Positions 2,345 through 8,828 of a DNA stretch of 64,000 bases are shown here, piece after piece. This DNA is from Pseudoflavitalea sp. G-6-1-2. GTDB taxonomy: Bacteria; Bacteroidota; Bacteroidia; Chitinophagales; Chitinophagaceae. The notes under the pieces are model-generated. The model was not told where the DNA came from. It made no database searches and saw only the letters and a program-made list of their open reading frames with translations. The position numbers were made by a program, and so were the translations under genes. The stretch is from contig NZ_JABBGB010000001.1 of assembly GCF_012927185.1 (NCBI RefSeq), positions 124,001-188,000 of the forward strand. The letters run 5' to 3'. Within the stretch, counting starts at the first letter, position 1, and each line of letters opens with the position of its first letter.

Positions 2345-3664
2345 TTAACGGCGGCCCAGTCCCATGCGTCCCATCGGCATTTTGTTCATCATTTTCATCA
2401 TGCCTTTCATCTGTTCGAACTGCTTCAGAAATCCGTTCAGTTCGTCCATACTTTTTCCTGCCCCTTTGGCAATCCGCGTTTTACGACGGGCGTCGATTAT
2501 TTCAGGGTTTGAACGCTCTTCGGGTGTCATTGAATTGATCAATGCTTCGATACCCTGAAAAGCATCATCGGATATATCGATGTCTTTTACAGCCTTTCCA
2601 ACACCGGGGATCATTCCGAGGAGATCTTTGATATTTCCCATCTTCTTGATCTGCTCCAGCTGCTGTTTGAAATCGCTCAGATCAAACTGGTTCTTTCTGA
2701 TCTTCTTCTCCAGCTTCTTGGCTTCTGCTTCATCGAACTGTGCCTGAGCCTTTTCTACGAGGGTAGTGATATCACCCATGCCCAGGATACGCTGTGCCAT
2801 ACGCTCGGGGTAGAACACATCGAGGGTATCCATCTTCTCACCACTGCTTACAAACTTGATCGGTTTGTTCACGGTGTATTTGATGGATAAGGCAGCACCA
2901 CCACGGGTATCACCATCCAATTTGGTGAGTACCACGCCGCTGAAGTCGAGGCGATCGTTGAAGGCCTTGGCAGTGTTCACTGCATCCTGACCGGTCATAG
3001 AATCCACCACGAACAGGATCTCCTGCGGTTTCACGGCAGATTTTACATTGGCCACTTCGGTCATCATCTGCTCGTCTACAGCCAGTCGGCCGGCAGTATC
3101 GATGATCAGTACGTTCTTATTTCTGCTTTTTGCCTCTTTCACCGCATTGGTGGCGATGTCTACGGCATTTTTATTTTCTGGTTCGCTGTACACTTCTACC
3201 CCAATCTGTTCGCCCAGCACTTTCAGCTGATCGATGGCCGCAGGGCGGTAGATATCCGCCGCCACCAGCATGGGGTTGAGGTTCTTACGTGTTTTGAGGT
3301 AGTTGGCCAGTTTGGCGCTGAAAGTGGTTTTACCCGAACCCTGCAGACCGGCAATGAGAATTACAGCGGGATTGCCTTTGGCATTGAACTCGCTTTCGGT
3401 TCCTCCCATCAGTTCGGCGAGCTCGTCTTTTACGATCTTCACCATCAGCTGGCCAGGACTCACTGCTGTTAATACTTTCTGCCCCAGGGCAGTATCGCGC
3501 ACCTTGTCGGTGAAATCCTTCGCGATCTTGTAGTTCACGTCGGCATCAACCAATGCACGGCGTATATCCTTTACCGTGGCTGCAATATTTAACTCGGTGA
3601 TTCTTCCTTCACCCTTTATCTGTTTGAAGGCCGATTCTAACCGCTCTGTAAGATTCTGGAACAT
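2345..3664 (-). CDS. ffh: Signal recognition particle GTPase Ffh
   Basis: 439 residues, normal family length. An N-terminal helical bundle is followed by the GTPase domain with P-loop GLQGSGKTTFSAKLA, DTAGRL and TKLDGDTRGGAALS, and by a methionine-rich M domain ending QMKGMMKMMNKMPMGRMGLG that binds 4.5S RNA and signal peptides. It targets membrane and secretory proteins to the translocon together with FtsY. It sits between rpoD and rpsP, all leftward, and appears to have its own promoter. Confidence 0.97.
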   Translation of the reverse strand: MFQNLTERLESAFKQIKGEGRITELNIAATVKDIRRALVDADVNYKIAKDFTDKVRDTALGQKVLTAVSPGQLMVKIVKDELAELMGGTESEFNAKGNPAVILIAGLQGSGKTTFSAKLANYLKTRKNLNPMLVAADIYRPAAIDQLKVLGEQIGVEVYSEPENKNAVDIATNAVKEAKSRNKNVLIIDTAGRLAVDEQMMTEVANVKSAVKPQEILFVVDSMTGQDAVNTAKAFNDRLDFSGVVLTKLDGDTRGGAALSIKYTVNKPIKFVSSGEKMDTLDVFYPERMAQRILGMGDITTLVEKAQAQFDEAEAKKLEKKIRKNQFDLSDFKQQLEQIKKMGNIKDLLGMIPGVGKAVKDIDISDDAFQGIEALINSMTPEERSNPEIIDARRKTRIAKGAGKSMDELNGFLKQFEQMKGMMKMMNKMPMGRMGLGRR

Positions 3665-3816: not shown

Positions 3817-4686
3817 TTATACGCCCAGGTAACTGCGAAGTGCCCTTGAACGTGAATTGGTTCTCAGCTTGGTAATGGCTTTGTCTTTGATCTGCCGTAC
3901 CCGCTCGCGCGTGAGATTGAATTTATCGCCGATATCTTCGAGGCTCATGGGATGGTCTACCCCAATTCCGAAGAAATAGCAGATCACTTCTTTCTGGCGC
4001 TCGGTAAGCATTTTCATCGACCGCTCGATTTCCATGCGGAGGCTCTCTTTGTGCTCGATATTGGTTTCTGCCCGCTCTGCATTCGGATTCTCCAGTACAT
4101 CAACCAATGTATTGTCTTCACCTTCCGAAAGTGGTGTATCCATGCTCACATGCCTGGCAGCGATGCCGAGTGTGGCCGATACTTCTTCCGTTTCGAGTTC
4201 AAGCAGTTCGGCCAGTTCTTCGGGGCTGGGTTCGCGTTCGAACTCCTGCTCCAGCTGGGAGAATGCTTTCTGAATTTTGTTGGTGAGACCTACTTTGTTG
4301 AGAGGGAGACGAACAATGCGGGATTGTTCAGCGAGTGCCTGCAGAATGCTTTGGCGAATCCACCATACGGCGTAAGAGATGAATTTGAAACCGCGCGTTT
4401 CATCGAAACGCTGTGCTGCTTTGATAAGGCCGAGGTTACCTTCATTGATCAGATCAGGTAAGGAAAGTCCCTGATTCTGATATTGTTTGGCAACGGATAC
4501 CACAAAGCGGAGGTTGGCTTTGGTCAGTTTGTCGAGGGCAGACTGATCTCCCTGTTTGATTCTACGGGCGAGTCTGACTTCTTCTTCAGGGCTGATCAAT
4601 TCAACTTTACCGATTTCCTGCAGGTATTTCTCAAGGCTCTGAGATTCACGATTCGTTATCGATTTCGTGATCTTGAGTTGACGCAT
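3817..4686 (-). CDS. rpoD: Primary sigma factor RpoD/SigA (short Bacteroidota form)
   Basis: 289 residues from [16 protein letters not shown]; an ATG two codons upstream (4692) is an equally readable start. Region 1.2 ([19 protein letters not shown]), regions 2.1-2.4 ([20 protein letters not shown], then [15 protein letters not shown]), region 3 and region 4.2 ([18 protein letters not shown]) are present. Region 1.1 and the long non-conserved insert of E. coli RpoD are absent, as expected for the housekeeping sigma factor of this phylum. Its promoters have the TTTG/TAnnTTTG form seen several times in this window. Its leader holds a small CCTGG/CCAGG hairpin (4734-4749). Confidence 0.96.
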
Positions 4687-5011
4687 ACTCATAGGTTGAG
4701 GTCGTTTAAAGGGTTTTTAAGGTTTAAAGGTTACCTGGTATTATCCAGGAGAAAAACGTAATAAAGCCTGTTTTCTTATATGATGATCGTCAACTTGTAA
4801 AAAGCCTGCAAAAGCAATTTAACCAATTCAAGCCCATTTTCCAAAAAAAAGAATGCTAAGCAACTGGTTTACAGTAGTTTTAAAGTTTTTCCCTTCAATG
4901 TTATCTTTCCATATCTTTAACGGGCCCCTTAACAAAAAAATTTTTGGGGTAGTATTATTTTTCTATTATTGCAACACAGGTATTACAAAAAGTTTTCAAT
5001 ACAAGGAGTAG
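4687..5011 (+). other. Divergent intergenic region, rpoD / START-like gene
   Basis: 325 bp, AT-rich. It holds the CCTGG(TATTAT)CCAGG hairpin at 4734-4749 in the rpoD leader and an unusually good Shine-Dalgarno AAGGAG at 5003-5008 for the rightward gene. No perfect TAnnTTTG promoter box was found on either strand; a TGCTTTTG on the minus strand is the closest for rpoD. Confidence 0.4.
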
Positions 5012-5392: not shown

Positions 5393-6000
5393 GGAAGCAA
5401 TGCAGTAAAGATGGCGCGGTACATTGTTTCCGCCTTTCCCGCTGATTCATTCCACATCTGTAACGGAATTCTTACAGATAACTTACAGAAATCATTAACC
5501 GAAAGATGAGAATCGATCAACTGTTCATCCAGTTGATCCATGGCTGCATAATTCGAAGCACTCAACTCATGCCGCCATTCATCTTCATTAATGCAAACCA
5601 TAAATCCTTTATCCGATAATCCCCTCTTATTTTTCTTCAACACATCCAGCAGCTTCGTTTTGTATTCGCCGCTAAGGTGCAGCGTGATGCTGAAATAATG
5701 CCCCCACCAGAACATCGTTCGGATGGCAAACACATGGTCTTTTCTGAAGATCTTCGGAAAATCGAGCATCACCCAGGGCAACCCCTCATATTTTTCTCCT
5801 TTTGATATCTTCGGAGACGAACCGGTGAATTCCTCCGGAAGATGGCTGCCATACGCTTCCATCTCCTGCCGGATTACCGGTATCATATCCCCCATCATCT
5901 CCATGGCTTTGTCGATAATGGCATTCTTTGTTAAAAGCAGTTGACCATTTTGAATGAATGCCAATTCATCTGCCGAAAGATGTATTTTTGTCCGATTCAT
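5389..6000 (-). CDS. Conserved hypothetical protein
   Basis: 203 residues; not recognised. No signal peptide or membrane segment is visible. It begins MNRTKIHLSADELAFIQNGQ, and has a methionine-rich helix (DKAMEMMGDMIPVIRQEM) and a central tryptophan-rich stretch (IRTMFWWGHYFSITLHLSG). The composition is that of a soluble cytoplasmic protein. It is convergent with the START-like gene and divergent from the permease gene, whose start is only 25 bp away, so its upstream region and the permease promoter overlap. Coding nature is supported by length and absence of any better reading on the other strand. Confidence 0.7.
   Translation of the reverse strand: MNRTKIHLSADELAFIQNGQLLLTKNAIIDKAMEMMGDMIPVIRQEMEAYGSHLPEEFTGSSPKISKGEKYEGLPWVMLDFPKIFRKDHVFAIRTMFWWGHYFSITLHLSGEYKTKLLDVLKKNKRGLSDKGFMVCINEDEWRHELSASNYAAMDQLDEQLIDSHLSVNDFCKLSVRIPLQMWNESAGKAETMYRAIFTALLP
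5983..5990 (+). promoter_or_regulatory. Putative -7 box for the LptF/LptG-type gene
   Basis: TATTTTTG matches TAnnTTTG and lies 34 bp before the GTG start at 6025, inside the first codons of the divergent gene. No good -33 element sits 19-21 bp upstream, so this is tentative. Confidence 0.35.
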
Positions 6001-6024
6001 GTATTAAAGGTAATTAGCAGCACT

Positions 6025-7572
6025 GTGATCAAAAAACTGGATATACTTGTACTCCGGGCATTCATTGGCCCTTTTATCGCCACCTTTTTCCTCACACTTT
6101 TTGTGCTGATCCTGCAATTCTTCTGGTTGTGGATCGATGACTTTGTAGGCAAAGGTATCGATGGCATTGTAATGATGCGCCTCATGATGTACCTGAGCGC
6201 TACCCTGGTGCCGTTAGCGCTTCCATTGGCCGTGCTTTTATCTTCAATCATGACATTCGGTAACCTCGGCGAAACATTCGAGCTCGTTGCTATCAAATCG
6301 GCCGGTATCGGCCTTATGCGCTTCATGCGCCCCCTGCTTGTTACTGCTGCTCTTCTCTCCGGCGTGGCCTTCCTCTTCAACAACTACGTGATCCCCGTAG
6401 CCAATCTCAAAATGAAGACCCTCCAGAACGATGTGGTAAATAAAAAACCAGCCTTCGCACTCAAAGAAGGCGTTTTCTATACTGCCATCCCCGGATACGC
6501 GCTGAAGGTGAGCAAAAAGGAACAGGACTCCATTCTGCACAACGTTATCATCTACGAAAATGGAAACGCACAATTGCAGGATAATATGATCGCCGCCCGC
6601 AAAGGCATCATGAAAGTTACGCCAGACAAGCATTTCCTCGAATTCCGTCTGCTCGATGGATGGCGCTATCAGGAAGAAGGCAACCGCGGTACCACCAACA
6701 CACAATTCACACGCCTCGGATTCAAAGAATACAAAAAGATACTCGACCTCAGCGCTCTCACCTTCAACCAAACCGATGAGGAGACTTTCAAGAACTATCA
6801 TGAAATGCTCAATGTAGGTCAACTGAGCGTAAGAGCCGATTCACTTGCCAAAGACATTAAGAAAGTAGAAGAACGCTCACGCGTAGACCTGCTCATGTAC
6901 GCAAACTTCAACCGTTACATCGATACCGGCTGGACGGCCAGCGTGAAAGCCGCGAAGCTGCCCGACAGCATCAGATCTTTTTCGCAGCTCATACCCGACA
7001 GTCTTCGCGCGATGGTCACCGATAACAGTGCATCCTACGCAACATCCATGAAGTCTGCCATCGAAGGAAGCGCCGTCGATTACGAAGCCAAACGCAAAGA
7101 CCTCCGTCTTCACCTGATGACATTGCACGAAAAAATTGCCATGTCACTCGCCGTGCTCGTACTCTTTCTCATTGGCGCCCCACTCGGATCGATTGTGCGT
7201 AAAGGTGGTATCGGAACTCCTGTGGTATTCGCCGTAGCATTTTTCGTGATCTTCTTTTTGCTGAACAACTTCGGAAAGAAATTCGTGAAAGAAGATGTGC
7301 TGACTCCATTTGGCGGCATGTGGCTGGCCACCTTCGTACTGGTGCCCATCAGCATGTTCCTCATCTATAAAGCGCTGCACGATTCACAGCTCTTCAACAA
7401 AGAATTCTACTTCCGCATGTTCAGGAGCATTGGCAAACTGGTTGCAAAATACCGAAAGCCCAAACCTGCTCTGGCAGCGGCTTCCGGAGAAACAATCGAA
7501 ATCGGGGAGGATGTTGAAATTTCTGACGAAGTGGTTGCTGAAAAGCCAAACGAAAAGAATTCAGAGGCGTAA
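6025..7572 (+). CDS. LptF/LptG-family permease (YjgP/YjgQ)
   Basis: 515 residues from the GTG at 6025 (VIKKLDILVLRAFIGPF), which has AAAGG 14 bases upstream; an upstream in-frame ATG at 5941 would read through the start of the divergent gene. Three N-terminal membrane segments (about residues 10-40, 55-85, 100-125), a long periplasmic jellyroll-type region, and three C-terminal segments (about 365-460) follow the LptF/LptG plan. These proteins form the inner-membrane ABC exporter with LptB that drives lipopolysaccharide to the outer membrane. The protein is longer than the roughly 360 residues of E. coli LptF/G because of an enlarged periplasmic part and an acidic C-terminal tail, typical for the phylum. 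LptF or LptG cannot be decided. Confidence 0.9.
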   Translation: MIKKLDILVLRAFIGPFIATFFLTLFVLILQFFWLWIDDFVGKGIDGIVMMRLMMYLSATLVPLALPLAVLLSSIMTFGNLGETFELVAIKSAGIGLMRFMRPLLVTAALLSGVAFLFNNYVIPVANLKMKTLQNDVVNKKPAFALKEGVFYTAIPGYALKVSKKEQDSILHNVIIYENGNAQLQDNMIAARKGIMKVTPDKHFLEFRLLDGWRYQEEGNRGTTNTQFTRLGFKEYKKILDLSALTFNQTDEETFKNYHEMLNVGQLSVRADSLAKDIKKVEERSRVDLLMYANFNRYIDTGWTASVKAAKLPDSIRSFSQLIPDSLRAMVTDNSASYATSMKSAIEGSAVDYEAKRKDLRLHLMTLHEKIAMSLAVLVLFLIGAPLGSIVRKGGIGTPVVFAVAFFVIFFLLNNFGKKFVKEDVLTPFGGMWLATFVLVPISMFLIYKALHDSQLFNKEFYFRMFRSIGKLVAKYRKPKPALAAASGETIEIGEDVEISDEVVAEKPNEKNSEA

Positions 7573-7654: not shown

Positions 7655-7797
7655 GCGAAGGGATGTACAAATCCGTCGCGGAATGTGCCGGGCAGAGTTG
7701 TATCTCCGATTCAATCTAAGAATGAAGGATGGGGCAATGGTACAAAGCCAGGCGTTGACGCAACACATTCCAAGGCCGTATTTGTACATCCCTTCGC
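7655..7797 (+). repeat. Palindromic repeat element, copy 1
   Basis: 143 bp bounded by an 18-bp perfect inverted repeat (7655-7672 GCGAAGGGATGTACAAAT and 7780-7797). Inside, GGAATGTG (7680-7687) pairs with CACATTCC (7764-7771), giving a two-part hairpin with an internal loop. Two blocks (7668-7708 and 7760-7784) recur in inverted orientation in copy 2. It resembles REP/MITE-type elements, non-coding and possibly mobilised by an enzyme encoded elsewhere. Confidence 0.8.
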
Positions 7798-7952
7798 GCG
7801 CTTCGCCGGAGGTGCAGCTTTCGTTGCCTTAGAAATATTCTCATTGATAAAAGCCGGAGAAATACTTTTGAGTCACTGCAACTGAAACAATATTTTGATT
7901 CATGCATTAAGAGCATTTTTTGCAATTCAACTCTTGCCAAATCGGCGACCGA

Positions 7953-8106
7953 CCGTCGGGAAAGGGTATGCAAATACGGCCTTGGAATGTGTTGCACAGC
8001 AGCAGAGCATTGCACTACCGTTCAATCCTGTTTATCTGTAGCCTCACCGGAGATACAACGCTGCCCGGCACATTCCGCGACGGATTTGCATACCCTTTCC
8101 CGACGG
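7953..8106 (-). repeat. Palindromic repeat element, copy 2 (inverted relative to copy 1)
   Basis: 154 bp bounded by a 23-bp perfect inverted repeat (7953-7975 and 8084-8106, containing GGGTATGCAAAT). GGAATGTG (7984-7991) pairs with CACATTCC (8069-8076). The block 8048-8088 equals the reverse complement of 7668-7708 with one mismatch in 41, and 7971-7995 equals the reverse complement of 7760-7784 over 25 of 25. The outer stems of the two copies differ in sequence but are each self-complementary. Confidence 0.8.
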
Positions 8107-8129: not shown

Positions 8130-8828
8130 TTAGAAGTTGGGCTGCAACGGATGCTTCGTATAAAACTCCAGCACATGCGCCACCACTTCTTCCGGTGTAT
8201 CTGCAATCTTCAGCAGATCGAGATCTTCCGGTGAAATATTCGATGCCTGCTTATGCATGGTTTCGTGCATCCAGCTAACGAGACCACTCCAGTAATCGGT
8301 GCCTACCAATATGAGTGGCACCTGCAACATCTTACCGGTTTGTATCAGCGTAATTACTTCGAAGAATTCATCCATCGTTCCAAATCCTCCGGGCATCATC
8401 ACAAAGCCCTGCGAGTATTTTGTGAACATCACTTTTCTCACGAAGAAATATTCAAAATGGAGATTGGCATCACGATCGATATACGGGTTGGCATGTTGCT
8501 CAAAAGGCAACTCGATATTCAATCCTACCGATTTGCCACCACCCAGCTGCGCGCCTTTGTTTGCTGCTTCCATCACACCCGGACCACCACCTGAAATGAT
8601 ACCGAAACCTTCTTCCGCCAGCTTGCGGGAAATAGCCGTAGTGAGTTCATAAAACGGATGCCCTGGTTGTGTGCGGGCCGAACCAAAAACAGAGATACAA
8701 GGACCAATCTTTGCAAGTGCCTCAAAGCCATCCACAAATTCTGCCATGATCTTGAATATCTGCCAACTGCTATGCGCCTTACTTTCCGACCACCTGCGTT
8801 GCTTACTCTTTCTGATCGAATCATTCAT
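8130..8828 (-). CDS. LOG-family protein (TIGR00730)
   Basis: 232 residues. The Rossmann-like LOG fold is shown by ISVFGSARTQPGHPFY, the phosphate-binding loop SGGGPGVMEAANKGA and MMPGGFGTMDEFFEV. Family members studied hydrolyse cytokinin riboside 5'-monophosphates or more general nucleoside monophosphates to the base and ribose 5-phosphate. The longer N-terminus (about 40 residues before the fold) puts it in the larger LOG subgroup. A second, shorter LOG gene lies at 10533-11072 beyond the symporter. Substrate in this organism is unknown. Confidence 0.9.
   Translation of the reverse strand: MNDSIRKSKQRRWSESKAHSSWQIFKIMAEFVDGFEALAKIGPCISVFGSARTQPGHPFYELTTAISRKLAEEGFGIISGGGPGVMEAANKGAQLGGGKSVGLNIELPFEQHANPYIDRDANLHFEYFFVRKVMFTKYSQGFVMMPGGFGTMDEFFEVITLIQTGKMLQVPLILVGTDYWSGLVSWMHETMHKQASNISPEDLDLLKIADTPEEVVAHVLEFYTKHPLQPNF

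Follow-up and report, generated by a model that had tools for sequence, protein, structure and literature searches.

The locus

An LptG/YjgP-like permease gene and a LOG / TIGR00730-like gene converge on a pair of palindromic elements, A and B, in the window, by which the whole analysed stretch of 64,000 nucleotides is meant (Table 1). The initial annotation had described two facing palindromes of 143 and 154 bp at this place, and their coordinates and lengths were borne out. A script check also confirmed the perfect outer arms of 18 bp in A and 23 bp in B, and the inner stem GGAATGTG/CACATTCC common to both. The 41-nt and 25-nt inverted blocks that had been reported as shared are contained in longer ones, of 52 nt (90%) and 39 nt (87%), which A and B carry in opposite orientation. 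When folded as single-stranded DNA, A reached a z-score of -5.8 and B, folded as 150 of its 154 nt, one of -7.4; none of 200 dinucleotide shuffles was as good for either element. The 17-mer CGGAATGTGCCGGGCAG occurs twice, and two matches were found in none of 100 shuffles when up to three mismatches were allowed. Therefore, given the fold scores and the doubled 17-mer, the palindromes of A and B are not due to chance. No conserved sequence beyond the tail motif GGTGCAGC was recognised by eye in the spacer between them. Against Rfam 15, the window gave no match above the gathering score and two chance-level matches (E 1.4 and 1.9).

Table 1. Features of the paired elements and their flanking genes, in positions of the window
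Feature	Position	Strand	Basis or remark
Flanking gene 1, LptG/YjgP-like permease	5941-7572	+	ends 82 bp before A; named by reading, without family search
Element A, palindromic hairpin with large apical loop	7655-7797 (143 bp)	+	sequence comparison, R1 (match at G000:C1:131658-131792, 117.4 bits), folding
A, outer stem P1, 5' arm	7655-7672	+	18 bp, perfect with 7780-7797
A, inner stem P2, 5' strand GGAATGTG	7680-7687	+	script check; P2 covariation
A, apical loop (core)	7688-7763	+	alike among copies; without covarying helix
A, inner stem P2, 3' strand CACATTCC	7764-7771	+	followed by internal-loop AA at 7772-7773
A, outer stem P1, 3' arm	7780-7797	+	script-checked pairing
Spacer between A and B	7798-7952	.	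read by eye
Tail motif GGTGCAGC, just inside the pair	7811-7818	+	script check
Element B, same family, opposite orientation to A	7953-8106 (154 bp)	-	sequence comparison, R1 (match at G000:C1:131963-132096, 113.2 bits), folding
B, outer stem P1, 3' arm on minus strand	7953-7975	-	script-checked
B, inner stem P2, 3' strand on minus strand	7984-7991	-	script-checked
B, apical loop (core)	7992-8068	-	sequence reading, alignment
B, inner stem P2, 5' strand on minus strand, GGAATGTG as in A	8069-8076	-	script-checked
B, outer stem P1, 5' arm on minus strand	8084-8106	-	23 bp, perfect with 7953-7975
Flanking gene 2, LOG / TIGR00730-like	8130-8828	-	end 23 bp past B; named by reading, without family search

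The same site, between the same two convergent genes, also carries a pair in G001, G004 and G002, in which the permease neighbour was read likewise. By reading, its counterpart in G005 has no insert. At the permease gene end in that genome (L123), a short GACCTCA-like tandem repeat stands where the other species carry the pair.

Family size and distribution

BLASTN searches with A and B found further copies in their own genome (G000), and a covariance model, R1, was made from 29 copies of G000 (alignment A1, which used 29 of the 30 motif-found copies and left out C1:1370596). The model gave 59 matches in G000 at E ≤ 1, of which 57 were below 1e-5, E-values of covariance models being rough. The check for further copies of the shared blocks, which had been proposed with the initial annotation, therefore had a positive outcome. 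An exact 25-mer search of genome_contigs gave no match.

Two more models were used, R2 from the copies of relatives and R3 as a general model. Matches to R1 were present in 4 of 59 related genomes including its own, all belonging to the same genus (G000, G001, G002 and G004, the last with 46 matches counted by R1 only). With R2, 114 matches were found in G001, and five of 394 family genomes had matches, namely the same four and G179, which belongs to another genus and is incomplete (84%, in 420 contigs). R3 gave 109 matches in G002 and 3 in G179 at E ≤ 0.1, and across 395 genomes of the class it matched the own genome alone. For the other two genus members, G003 and G005, nothing was found with R1, with R2 at E ≤ 0.01 or with R3 at E ≤ 0.1, 150 candidates being scored with each of the latter two models. 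The carriers are thus four of the six genus members examined and one incomplete genome of another genus. The multi-genome searches ran with stricter filters and scored 56 first-look candidates per genome in the 59-genome R1 search and 8 per genome in the family and class scans; as the latter could miss weak copies, absence outside the genus is weak evidence. A scan of LOG-protein loci (80 loci, 57 of them searched with R2) gave one chance-level match only (E 0.62); the nearest named LOG-protein matches include Terrimonas, Flavihumibacter and Chitinophaga. Among literature titles and abstract openings, no description of this element family was found. It is a real, lineage-limited and dispersed extragenic family.

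The inverted pair as unit

Neighbouring elements no more than 1.6 kb apart always face each other ('+-'), in 20 of 20 cases in G000, 38 of 38 in G001 and 35 of 35 in G002, that is, in 93 of 93. The cores of pair members are more alike than those of re-paired elements (p 2e-4 in G000 and in G001), and the inner-stem 6-mers are identical in 10 of the 20 G000 pairs against 3.5 expected (p 6e-4). The spacers measure 89 to 985 bp in G001 and G002. The orientation rule also holds at non-convergent sites, which by crude ORF calls make up 31 of the 59 two-element sites (one of the 31 being two single elements 2.4 kb apart). As the elements face each other even at these sites, the pair itself is the unit.

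For L228 and L250 in G001, both halves match, with 85% over 180 nt and 76% over 280 nt. The match runs from outer palindrome edge to outer edge; the flanks have no match and the spacer between the halves is unaligned. This indicates that the inverted pair, and not a single palindrome, was copied there. It is the single clean case of whole-unit copying, and no target-site duplication was seen by eye at these two sites. The REPIN-like layout that the initial annotation had proposed is upheld, with the inverted doublet as its unit, by the 93 facing pairs together with this whole-unit copy.

Anatomy and covariation of the fold

Each element has two stems, an outer one, P1, and an inner one, P2, of about 8 bp. 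A small internal loop separates them, and P2 is capped by an apical loop of about 70 nt. The full length has a median of 153 nt in G000 and of 149 nt in G001. On its 3' side, the internal loop is AA in 57 of 62 rows in G000 and in at least 77 of 117 rows in G001, and in the window copies this AA is faced by GC. In the REPs of E. coli, the conserved mismatch is AA-GC in mirrored order (PMC8266576), and the likeness is best taken as a resemblance only.

Complementarity of the outer stems, on which the initial annotation had let its reading depend, was kept across copies, with standard pairs in 89.2% of stem cells over the 62 aligned rows of G000 (three weak partial matches being retained in the counts). 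Stem cells changed on both sides numbered 221 in G000 and 375 in G001, against 61 and 104 in shuffles, and none of 500 shuffles was as high. The weakest of the other covariation measures, pairs with a double change in G001, was matched by 5 of 500 shuffles. All rows were counted, including two antisense and one weak extra row in alignment A3 and three weak partial rows in alignment A4. The alignments were fitted to the structure and lean towards it; slid controls and the independent first alignment agree with the covariation of P1 and P2.

Helix-forming covariation is confined to these two stems. At P2 columns 23/137 in G000, the letters swap with almost no wobble state (AU 21, GC 21, CG 17, UA 1 and UG 1). 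No covarying helix was found in the apical loop, where the weaker signals (z 5.9 at columns 41/107 in G000 and z 8.5 at columns 38/41 in G001) form no run. Read by eye, the cores are of two types: R1 (TGCCGGGCAG ... GTGCAACA) prevails in G000 and R2 (ACCNGCGC ... TTCGCTTA) in G001, and each of these genomes also holds a few copies of the other type. The exact tail motif GTGCARC was found in 48 of 173 copies within 40 nt on the 3' side of the stem, and in none of the 173 within 30 nt on the 5' side. Two copies, L256 (about 2345-2449, minus strand) and L116 (about 1476-1515), have a partly tandem-repeated 5' arm, as if the hairpin had provoked local duplication.

Selection on pairing between orthologues

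The sister species G001 and G004, whose matching stretches are mostly 85-94% identical, were compared at 48 of the 114 G001 elements, these being the ones with an aligned match in 35 G004 loci, and the base pairs were defined from the G001 sequence. A match was given by 31 of the 35 loci; L100, L102 and L121 are second loci at covered sites, and L367 was without match. Substitutions amounted to 80/1680 (4.8%) in the 5' arm, 118/1680 (7.0%) in the 3' arm and 632/3022 (20.9%) in the loop, and to 273/2160 (12.6%) in the upstream and 340/1961 (17.3%) in the downstream flank. The stem arms (5-7%) are therefore more conserved than the loop (21%) or the adjacent intergenic DNA (13-17%). Double changes from one Watson-Crick pair to another were present in 26 of 1443 pairs, where 2000 shuffles averaged 1.1 and never exceeded 6. 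Single changes, in 107 of 1608 pairs, were more frequent than double changes, in 33. The selection for a folded structure that had been suggested from the window pair is thus backed both by covariation across copies and by that between orthologues. As the stem letters drift while pairing is kept, the folded hairpin itself seems to be what matters.

The new single changes between G001 and G004 comprised 10 G.T and 20 A.C states. Across copies, the outer stems held 22 G.T against 44 A.C mismatches (p 0.009) where two flanking pairs were present on each side, a filter which skips the positions right beside the internal mismatch. A forward-strand RNA with wobble tolerance all along the stem was rejected because G.T was favoured over A.C neither in the outer stems nor in the new changes. 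For the 17 modelled pairs in the fitted alignments, G.T and A.C numbered 63 and 31 in G000, and 145 and 17 in G001. At columns 3-4, a Watson-Crick partner lies one step off the G.T in a gapped stem in 1/2 and 12/13 cases in G000 and in 6/6 and 21/21 in G001, and the excess there is mostly a register artefact. Beside the mismatch, the excess is partly real: columns 19/141 and 20/140 in G000 hold 32 T.G and 2 C.A, and a gapped stem confirmed true partnership for 25 of the T.G; column 24/211 in G001 holds 101 T.G, with 38 confirmed. Since T.G is common and A.C rare beside the mismatch, the core-forward strand seems to be the folding one there, either as DNA or as RNA. The bulk of the stem shows no G.T tolerance.

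Genomic positions

The elements are found at the 3' ends of genes, in many cases where two genes converge. With gene neighbours taken from crude ORF calls, 52 of 112 sites were between convergent ORFs, compared to 10 of 104 background ORF neighbours (p 1.6e-9), and the end of the same-strand upstream ORF was at a median of 30 bp from the element. T-runs of 5 within 30 nt were upstream of the hairpin in 69 of 173 copies and downstream in 16, and a typical intrinsic terminator was rejected because so few copies have the run after the hairpin. A flank matching a G001 element site was found for 26 of 38 G000 sites (including L156, an odd one-sided match), and for 20 of them both flanks matched. 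These shared old positions indicate that transposition is rare. At the shared sites inspected, neither stems nor spacers look related in sequence, and the core types are not the same.

A 3-kb segment of G000 is duplicated at 91% (L357 and L358, G000:C2:1754651-1757633 and C3:1604838-1607825); it starts 13 nt outside an element stem and ends past a terminator. It holds a weakly SymE-like ORF (PF08845 at 16.1 bits, below the cut-off of 29) and an unknown 288-aa ORF. As it reads as a segmental duplication with no recognised transposase, a larger transposon was rejected.

Search for a mobilising protein

Three kinds of Y1 protein were found in the genus. One of 142 aa is encoded in all six genus genomes, in G000 between genes that by reading belong to aromatic biosynthesis. 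A RAYT-like one of 198 aa, the L031 kind (57.9 bits against NF047646, below the cut-off of 80), is also encoded in all six and is thereby present in G003 and G005, in which no element was found. The third, the L268 kind, is in G004 and G003 and scored 95.2 bits with NF047646. The carrier G179 has a RAYT-like gene of another kind. RAYT presence does not track the elements. A small Y1_Tnp protein of G000 (L030 1468-1893, G000:C3:744654; 70 bits) lies between chorismate-mutase-like and 3-dehydroquinate-synthase-like genes, both named by reading; it has relatives (L259-L263) in all six genus genomes and looks domesticated.

When R1 and R2 were run on 22 loci, no element was found in about 1.5 kb on each side of L031 and the other tested Y1 genes; the only matches were two loci included for their elements and one chance-level match (E 0.77). 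In G001, 2.7 kb separate the RAYT-like gene (4324-4920) from an element (L361 7581-7714), and a helicase-like gene stands between the two; an element of G002 (G002:C66:9054-9190) is 2.8 kb from the RAYT-like gene on the same contig. No element is within 120 kb of it in G000. The link to RAYT drawn by the initial annotation was not supported: none of the RAYT-like or other Y1 genes in the loci searched was directly flanked by a copy, and the gene also occurs in G003 and G005, yet elements do lie 2.7-2.8 kb off in G001 and G002. Action of a RAYT in trans is possible, with little in the positions to support it.

An autonomous copy was rejected, as the long '+...-' spans L359 and L360 in G001 and L148 in G000 (counted as two sites) hold seemingly ordinary chromosomal genes; no transposase was recognised by reading in the two long spans checked for genes. 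A phage or plasmid origin was rejected for lack of a blastn match. A Y1-motif-like stretch in G001 (L362 4874-5035, G001:C1:2023873-2024034), in frame before an ABC-transporter-like ORF, is apparently a decayed remnant.

Discussion

The family, with its pairing rule, its positions at gene ends, the selection on its pairing and one whole-unit copying event, is on balance probably a lineage-specific, REPIN-like family of non-autonomous miniature mobile elements, in which paired palindromes of about 150 bp are read in trans as folded single-stranded DNA. The unit would be the inverted pair with its variable spacer, copied whole and landing just downstream of genes. Each palindrome would fold, single-stranded DNA being the most likely form, into a long hairpin that has a large loop and, between the stems, a small mismatch that is fixed. 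A trans-acting, structure-reading protein would then recognise the fold, the mismatch and the loop, and not the stem letters, and stems whose letters are irrelevant to the reader could drift by paired changes. The mismatch and the free stem letters point to recognition of a folded strand; the single-stranded DNA substrate and a trans-acting protein, putatively of the HUH type, are inferred. The patchy distribution, in four of six genus members, also supports this explanation.

Some observations count against it. Rare transposition alone is not enough to account for stems that remain paired at their sites, and a loop that changes faster than the adjacent DNA is odd for a recognition site. The loop diverges more than the adjacent intergenic DNA, yet within one genome the core is of the same type in most copies; either conversion among copies or a change made jointly with the protein would be sufficient to account for this. 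The AA of the mismatch is less constant in G001, and the common T.G beside the mismatch would also be expected of RNA. It is unlikely, but conceivable, that the host has adopted the elements as a genome-wide system of paired DNA hairpins, which lie where genes end and which a protein reads in their folded form, and that the loops of each lineage co-shift following that protein. The co-shift would show in the two core types, R1 predominating in some species and R2 in others at sites that are orthologous.

Fairly unlikely, though to be taken seriously, is an architecture kept by the host, in which 3'-end insulators, either DNA cruciforms or both-strand RNA structures, would separate convergent genes and the stems would be kept by host selection. 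The excess of convergent sites, the short distance to the upstream ORF end, the conservation of stems in place and the positions common to several species would all be accounted for, and both-strand RNA also predicts no G.U preference in most of the stem. However, no element was found in two of the six genus members, and coarser searches of other genera that were sampled gave elements in one genome only; whole-unit copying between loci is known from G001, about half of the two-element sites (31/59) are non-convergent by ORF calls, and the few T-runs after the hairpin show that these are not typical intrinsic terminators. That the copies are a family of structured non-coding RNAs, with the core-forward strand as the one that is read, is quite improbable. 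It would fit the strong covariation, the alike loop sequences, the orientation along the upstream gene and the strand-specific T.G wobble beside the mismatch; this wobble, being partly real, slightly raises the RNA explanation and slightly lowers that by mobile elements. Set against it are a loop in which no helix was found, the remainder of the stem without wobble preference, a window without an Rfam match at gathering score, and the T-run that stands just upstream in many copies, as after a terminator.

Another possibility, which overlaps with the REPIN-like explanation and names its mover, is that the RAYT-like protein of L031, encoded beside a helicase-like gene, moves the REPIN in trans; we regard this as unlikely. 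The gene is present in all four element-bearing genus members (with another kind in G179), the nearby elements in G001 and G002 slightly raise the possibility, and the Bacteroidetes subclass 2.6 TnpA genes with flanking folded repeats (PMC6006769) offer a precedent. The gene is, however, also present in G003 and G005, where no element was found, no genome has an element in the stretch searched on each side of it or, in G000, within 120 kb, and only 14 of 173 copies have GTAG or GTGG in the 12 nt on the 5' side of the stem. It is most improbable that the paired changes arose solely by template switching inside the quasi-palindrome, without selection. The arms are indeed near-perfect partners while their letters drift, but arm-to-arm correction alone predicts a near-neutral rate in the arms, where it is 5-7% against 13-17% in adjacent DNA, and single changes outnumber double ones.

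To return to the REPIN-like explanation, REPINs are defined by an inverted doublet as the unit (PMC3116915) and REPs as short palindromes of 20-50 nt (PMC8266576). The present family resembles REPINs and BIMEs (paired REPs, linked to RAYT/TnpAREP) in its inverted doublet unit, its extragenic location near gene 3' ends, its stem mismatch and its tens to about 100 copies. It differs in having palindromes of about 150 bp, with a loop of about 70 nt, instead of palindromes of 20-50 nt, in its variable spacers, in lacking a RAYT directly beside a copy and in lacking the conserved 5' tetranucleotide, which is mostly GTAG in REPs; no position in the 30 nt upstream of the stem had one base in more than 59%. 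The nearest precedent appears to be the Bacteroidetes TnpA genes of subclass 2.6, which are reported to have atypical secondary structures on their flanks and further copies of these at other places in the genome (PMC6006769). Phylum, non-canonical folded repeats and copies elsewhere are shared; compared by description only, those repeats flank tnpA, whereas none here was seen to do so.

MITE or foldback transposons likewise have inverted ends and no recognised coding capacity or internal transposase gene. The ends here are palindromes whose letters vary between copies, and no target duplication was seen in the one clear case. The attC sites of integrons also have variable stem letters. Recombination at attC sites acts on a folded single strand (PMC8266576), as is proposed here.

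Two genomes have about 100 hairpins each, and orthologous ones were compared in 48 cases; the family thereby offers a direct way to separate selection on a DNA fold from selection on RNA. It is also an example of a REPIN-like life style in which no RAYT stands next to the elements and the palindromes exceed the described REPs several times in length, and therefore there may be either another mover or a distant, domesticated one working in trans.
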